Source of the DNA: an uncultured Fidelibacterota bacterium
GTDB taxonomy: Bacteria; Fidelibacterota; Marinisomatia; Marinisomatales; Marinisomataceae
NCBI GenBank assembly: GCA_902629855.1
Contig: CACOSI010000001.1
Coordinates: 155,846-219,845, forward strand
Direction: 5' to 3'
DNA: 64,000 nucleotides
The notes below the pieces were generated by a model that did no database searches, was not told the DNA's origin, and saw only the letters and a program-made list of their open reading frames with translations. Every line of letters starts with the position of its first letter. Position 1 is the first letter of the stretch. Below, one piece after another: positions 2,238 to 2,828 of this stretch. Made by a program: the position numbers and the translations under genes.

Positions 2238-2407
2238 AAAACTAGGCATAAATATAAGTCATGAAAATTTAATTTAATACTCTTAAAAAAGCATTTTTTA
2301 AAATTTTTTTTTAAAAATAGCATAAAAAATATTGACCAATTATAAAAATTAATATTACTTTGGGTAAGTCTAAAATTAGATTATTGTAAGCAAATACAAG
2401 CAAATCG

Positions 2408-2444
2408 AAAAGGCTCTGGGGTTGGCGCTGCAGAGCCTTTTTTG
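2408..2444 (+). terminator. Rho-independent terminator-like hairpin upstream of ssrA
   Basis: AAAAGGCTCTG ... CAGAGCCTTTTTT: perfect 8-bp stem followed by a T run. Confidence 0.7.
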
Positions 2445-2484
2445 TTAATAAAATTTGTTGTATCTTCTTTTTTATTTGAAAATT

Positions 2485-2828
2485 GGGGGCGACCGGTTTC
2501 GACATTTTAGAATGAAATCTTAGATTGCATGTAGAGCTTAGTAACTCTTAAAACTTCTTATCTATATTAAGTGCCGACAATGGCCAAATGGCTTTTGCTT
2601 AATTGCTAAAGCCCATCATCAGTAGACGTTTCTCATCGTTCGCTGAATGGTGTCATAAAAATGAGATAGCTTATTTCTCTGCTTCGGCTAAATAAGCGAA
2701 AATTAGAAGATTGCTATATACCTGTTTGTTCTTGTACAGCTATTTAGTGAAATTTGATCAAGAAACTAAACATGTAGATATCTATTATTTTACTATTTTG
2801 GACGGGAGTTCGAATCTCCCCGCCTCCA
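2485..2828 (+). ncRNA. ssrA: tmRNA (transfer-messenger RNA), one-piece
   Basis: 5' GGGGGCGACCGGTTTCGAC and 3' GGGAGTTCGAATCTCCCCGCCTCCA form the tRNA-like domain (acceptor GGGGGCG/CGCCTCC). Internal reading frame GCC GAC AAT GGC CAA ATG GCT TTT GCT TAA, with the stop in the loop of a GGCTTT/AAAGCC helix. Confidence 0.95.

Follow-up and report, generated by a model that had tools for sequence, protein, structure and literature searches.

The window analysed here, a 64,000-nucleotide stretch of DNA from an uncultured Fidelibacterota bacterium, encodes a tmRNA whose tag ends in -AFA, and the question arises as to which protease such an ending might serve. The -ALAA ending is described as conserved in bacteria save Mycoplasma, in which the tag ends in -AFA and both ClpXP and ClpAP are absent (PMC3985003). 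Reviews account for this one exception by the loss of ClpXP. ClpX binds the terminal Ala-Ala-carboxylate, and replacement of either alanine raises the KM (PMC7652416). We consider it probable that this organism has a working tmRNA-SmpB ribosome rescue system, the degradation tag of which was re-tuned after the loss of ClpXP, with disposal most likely carried out by Lon.

The tmRNA gene and its tag

A complete, one-piece tmRNA gene (ssrA) was located on the forward strand at positions 2485–2829 using ARAGORN and Rfam RF00023. The covariance model was matched over its full length (model positions 1–374, 171.2 bits, E = 6e-68), and the two programs placed the 3΄ end at 2829 or 2831, with the start at 2485; tRNA-like ends, a tag frame and a P5 helix with the stop codon in its loop are all present. 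The tag frame (2573–2602, forward strand) reads GCC GAC AAT GGC CAA ATG GCT TTT GCT TAA, corresponding to ADNGQMAFA*, as supported by ARAGORN, Rfam and 19 tmRNAs from the same genus. In the covariance alignment, the resume codon falls at 2573, and not elsewhere, and the stop codon at 2600–2602 lies inside the loop of the P5 hairpin (2590–2613, forward strand), the arms of which are GGCUUUUGC at 2590–2598 and GCUAAAGCC at 2605–2613; the penultimate codon TTT is opposite AAA in the stem. The original prediction was thus exact with regard to the tag string, its coordinates and the position of the stop codon in a helix loop. Together with the tRNA-borne alanine, the tag on the protein is AADNGQMAFA, i.e. 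10 residues, of which 9 are encoded. The assembly containing the window comprises 0.93 Mb in 19 contigs and is 88% complete, and no similar tmRNA was found in a search of a phage collection.

The genus is made up of SAGs and MAGs with small genomes, belonging to Candidatus Marinimicrobia (SAR406). Its 19 tmRNAs encode ADNGQMAFA (12), ADYGQMAIA (4), ADYGQMAVA (1), ADYGQMATA (1) and ANNGQMAFA (1), a series that recurs in named genomes, where the exact tag patterns matched solely Marinimicrobia/Neomarinimicrobiota (SAR406) and unnamed or FCB-group bins. Codons 1, 4–7 and 9 are invariant, and variation is limited to codon 2 (GAC, GAT or AAT), codon 3, codon 8 (TTT, TTC, ATA, GTA or ACA) and the stop codon. 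The changes in codon 8 are often matched in the opposite arm of P5 (TTC with GAA, ATA with TAT), and these parallel changes also support the hairpin. Because of this pattern of codon conservation, the frame and the resume codon can be regarded as fixed; a sequencing error or a wrong frame is ruled out by the 19 related tmRNAs and the agreement of two programs. The shortness of the tag, which had also been regarded as an oddity, proved to be ordinary: nine residues are usual in the group and are found in ClpX-bearing relatives as well (e.g. ADYGYMAAA). The unusual feature of the tag is its bulky penultimate residue, rather than its length. Indeed, the tags of sister Marinimicrobia (ADYGYMAAA, ADNGYMAAA) share the 9-residue frame A-D-x-G-x-M-A-x-A and a comparable hairpin, but their penultimate residue is alanine and their genomes carry clpX after tig-clpP.

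A conserved element of ~85 nt was also observed between tRNA-Lys and the tmRNA (2358–2445, forward strand), preceded directly by a promoter-like TTGACC and containing a strong hairpin that resembles a terminator and has an invariant loop, GTTGGCGCT. Of the 19 genomes of the genus that were compared, 18 carry the element (fold z-score of –3.3), and no convincing match was obtained against Rfam. It is possibly an undescribed small RNA.

Tag endings and ClpX across the phylum

We compared the tag endings of 125 genomes of the phylum with a readable tmRNA tag, 65 with ClpX and 60 without detectable ClpX. The tags of G156, G099 and G068, for which the ARAGORN tags were wrong, over-long or missing, were read by hand. 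One genome (G108) was counted as ClpX-less; its native tig-clpP locus lacks clpX, and the clpX gene lies on a second tig-clpP-clpX-lon contig, which was taken as contamination. The -AA ending was found in 64 of the 65 ClpX-bearing genomes, the remaining one (G156) having -AVA. Among the ClpX-less genomes, 50 of 60 exhibited -A-x-A and 10 exhibited -AA, where x was Y (26), F (15), I (4), V (3), T (1) or M (1). In these 50 tags, position –2 was uncharged throughout (never D, E, K, R, G, P, S or N), and positions –1 and –3 remained alanine. When counted by genus, the combinations were ClpX with -AA (34), ClpX with -AxA (1), no ClpX with -AxA (21) and no ClpX with -AA (3). Fisher's test on the raw genome table gave 4e-22, a value that ignores kinship.

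To take kinship into account, two trees were computed, one from the tmRNA with the tag cut out and the other from the Lon protein. With uncertain genomes dropped, each tree contained 4 independent pairs with good support in which one member has ClpX and the other lacks it; the tag moved with ClpX in 3.9 and 3.6 of the 4 pairs on average, and never in the opposite direction. The best trees regardless of support yielded 7 independent pairs. The trees therefore support at least four independent co-changes of tag ending and ClpX, all in the same direction. The sign test on four pairs was not significant (P = 0.125), because four pairs are too few, and given this small number of events the case rests on the fact that no pair goes the other way, on the evidence from the clpX locus and on the parallel with Mycoplasma. 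Repeated loss of clpX is favored as the direction of change, because the tig-clpP-clpX order is kept in the distant ClpX-bearing genomes G031 and G074, the trees themselves leaving the direction unfixed. ClpX loss presumably preceded the change of the tag.

In the ClpX-bearing genomes, the gene order is tig-clpP-clpX, and the ClpX of the -AA relatives retains the pore-1 GYVG and RKH motifs. Seven of the ten ClpX-less genomes with -AA look like assembly gaps: in G127 and G040 the contig stops directly after clpP, and for G059, G086, G133, G140 and G147 clpX is present in a genome of the same genus. The remaining three run against the proposal, as does G156, which combines ClpX with -TAVA. Two of the three (G033, 99% complete, and G045) belong to one genus, g11 (L009, L012), in which neither ClpX nor ClpP was detected and the tag ends in -YMAAA; this state reflects either a recent ClpX loss preceding the tag change or a shared assembly gap. 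The third (G152, 89% complete, a single genome) likewise keeps -AA with neither ClpX nor ClpP.

Several further features of these genomes were recorded. The tag of G156 (L140) is SDYSYTAVA, with serine first; the assembly is 5% contaminated, and its two lon genes cluster with separate families. Contig 21 of G116 (L139) carries a second tmRNA with a different tag (ANSQLRMAA), which is probably contamination. The ClpX proteins of the window's order (L052, L053, L054 and L158) are ~380 aa long, begin near model position 38–65 and are without the N-terminal zinc domain that is present in ClpX of other families of the phylum.

Two explanations would remove the link between ending and protease, and we consider both very improbable. 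It is scarcely credible that ClpXP only seems to be missing because the MAGs and SAGs are incomplete; contig breaks do explain single cases such as G127 and G040, but ClpX was found in 0 of 24 genomes of the window's genus although Lon, SmpB and FtsH were detected, and clean tig-clpP loci without an adjoining clpX occur elsewhere in ClpX-less genomes (G025, G110 and G107, the last a one-contig genome). That the ending is set by the RNA hairpin or by base composition, and not by a protease, is highly improbable: the penultimate codon does lie within the P5 stem and the GC content of the window is low (30.8%), but a comparable hairpin is formed in ClpX-bearing relatives, in which this codon is GCN, and the switch is likewise seen where the GC content is 53.7% (the G107 region, with the tag ADNYGMAYA and a TAC codon), which rules out AT bias as the cause of the ending.

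Proteases available to the altered tag

We searched the 24 genomes of the genus for proteases using profiles, absence here being the outcome of these searches. ClpX was found in none of the 24 (the best matches being FtsH-like), ClpP exceeded the cut-off in none, and a PF07724 search yielded no ClpA/C, ClpB or HslU in any of them, whereas the same search revealed ClpC-sized and HslU-sized members in relatives of the order. Eight of the genomes lacking ClpXP are 92–98% complete (G002, G003, G011, G014, G015, G018, G019 and G023). In 16 of 24 genomes, Lon scored higher than its curated cut-off (995 bits in G019); the window's own assembly retains only the last third of lon, at a contig start, the gene being cut by the contig end. 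FtsH and SmpB are whole and above the cut-off in the window's genome (SmpB, 179 bits; cut-off, 130). Among the kinds searched (Clp/Hsp100, HslU, Lon and FtsH), the ATP-dependent proteases detected in the genus are thus Lon and FtsH. Of the features of a ClpXP-directed tag, the Ala-Ala end is replaced by -AFA, and clpX and clpP are both missing from the genus. The adaptor SspB, which the original prediction had named as a recognizer, is confined to some proteobacteria and was found in none of 61 genomes searched. The prediction had further suggested that either the specificity of ClpX or the degrading protease had co-evolved with the tag. For this genus the former is ruled out, as none of the 24 genomes has ClpX or ClpP; a change of degrading protease is supported comparatively by the co-variation of tag ending and ClpX across the phylum.

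These observations suggest a mechanism in which stalled ribosomes would receive AADNGQMAFA and, in a genus without ClpX, ClpP, ClpA/C and HslU, the Ala-Ala ending read by ClpX would have been freed from selection. The penultimate alanine could then have been replaced by a bulky or β-branched residue, namely F, I, V or T in the window's genus and Y, F, V or M in other ClpX-less lineages, with both flanking alanines kept (-A-x-A). On this view, -AA should stay in a genome that keeps ClpX, and the ending would be free to change where ClpX is gone. Tagging probably still leads to degradation in this genus, and the protease that reads the -AFA tag may well be Lon, with FtsH as the second candidate. 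Lon is preferred because Mycoplasma, which has Lon and lacks ClpXP, ends its tag in -AFA, and also because Lon reads a different C-terminal degron, the smg degron (-YLH), through its three terminal residues, of which the penultimate is large (PMC11986505).

Relaxed selection alone, in which position –2 merely drifts after ClpX loss, with no protease reading it specifically, and Lon and FtsH clear the tagged proteins as unfolded chains, is unlikely but deserves consideration, since in the window's genus position –2 can be F, I, V or T while the rest is mostly fixed and genus g11 retains the old ending without ClpX. However, drift does not readily account for an uncharged residue at –2 in 50 of 50 ClpX-less -AxA tags with alanine held at –1 and –3, for a P5 hairpin that often changes in parallel, or for the convergence of several lineages, like Mycoplasma, on Y or F. 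Selection by a new reader is preferred over drift because position –2 is hydrophobic or β-branched and never charged, positions –1 and –3 are alanine and the hairpin often co-changes. The identity of that reader may differ among lineages: many ClpX-less relatives keep ClpP and a ClpC-sized ATPase, which counts against Lon as a general reader, and in these relatives the new reader could be ClpCP. The stronger form of this idea, in which a ClpC/ClpA-type unfoldase reads -AxA in the ClpP-keeping relatives and Lon matters solely in the window's genus, is consistent with the retention of clpP in the ClpX-less relatives f3, f5, f8, f10, f18 and f24 and with a ClpC-sized AAA_2 protein (820–840 aa) in relatives of the order. 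We nevertheless judge it quite unlikely, as the window's genus has -AxA without ClpP or any AAA_2 unfoldase, and a reader common to all -AxA lineages would need to be Lon or FtsH.

Relation to known tags and implications

The tag retains much of the E. coli ssrA system (AANDENYALAA), including the tmRNA architecture, an Ala-first tag, a terminal alanine and the SmpB partner; it differs in having phenylalanine for the penultimate alanine, and ClpX, ClpP and SspB are absent from the genome. The closer likeness is to Mycoplasma/Mesoplasma, whose ssrA tag (mf-ssrA, AANKNEENTNEVPTFMLNAGQANYAFA) is reportedly read by Lon, according to the work of Gur and Sauer in 2008 and of Ge and Karzai in 2009. 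The Mycoplasma Lon tag has internal determinants. Both groups share the -AFA ending, the absence of ClpXP and ClpA/C with Lon and FtsH as the ATP-dependent proteases detected, and a small genome (0.93 Mb here). However, the organisms of the present genus belong to an unrelated phylum and are marine rather than host-bound parasites, recognition of their tag by Lon is proposed from comparison, and their tag is short (10 residues with the tRNA alanine), without a long multipartite internal part. The Lon-targeted tag of M. florum, by comparison, ends in NYAFA and comprises 27 aa (PMC9097571); this difference in length counts against the proposal.

Long tags were observed in ClpX-less relatives from other families, namely AKMVPTHLLTSNESFGAYAMA, ANAVPTHLLGASQPTSAYAFA and ADMVPTHLFAAQQTTSAYAFA (L141, L142 and L143; G079, G096 and G088). 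In their VPT and YAFA portions they are similar to the Lon tag of Mesoplasma (...EVPTFMLNAGQANYAFA), and base pairing between their VPTH codons and the far side of the hairpin seems feasible.

An event of this kind has a precedent in Mycoplasma; the novelty lies in the phylum and the setting, in the shortness of the tag and in the repeated occurrence. A search of the open literature found no report of a tag change with ClpX loss in Marinimicrobia, although the tmRNA Website may list individual tags. The switch would be akin to that of Mycoplasma, reached independently and several times within the phylum. We give about an even chance to the full generalization that the residue at –2 is a genomic read-out of the disposing protease, ClpX having been lost at least four times in Marinimicrobia and neighboring lineages of the phylum, and nearly every loss (one genus excepted) having turned -AA into -A-[hydrophobic]-A, a short Lon degron that Mycoplasma reached separately. 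A single historical case would thereby become a repeated and testable pattern in an ocean lineage and several others of the phylum. The tags are candidate short Lon degrons, of 10 residues as against the length noted above for M. florum, and close pairs (MAAA with ClpX, MAFA without) are suited to measuring degron-protease switching. If the generalization is true, the protease for tmRNA-tagged proteins might be guessed from ~30 bases of RNA.
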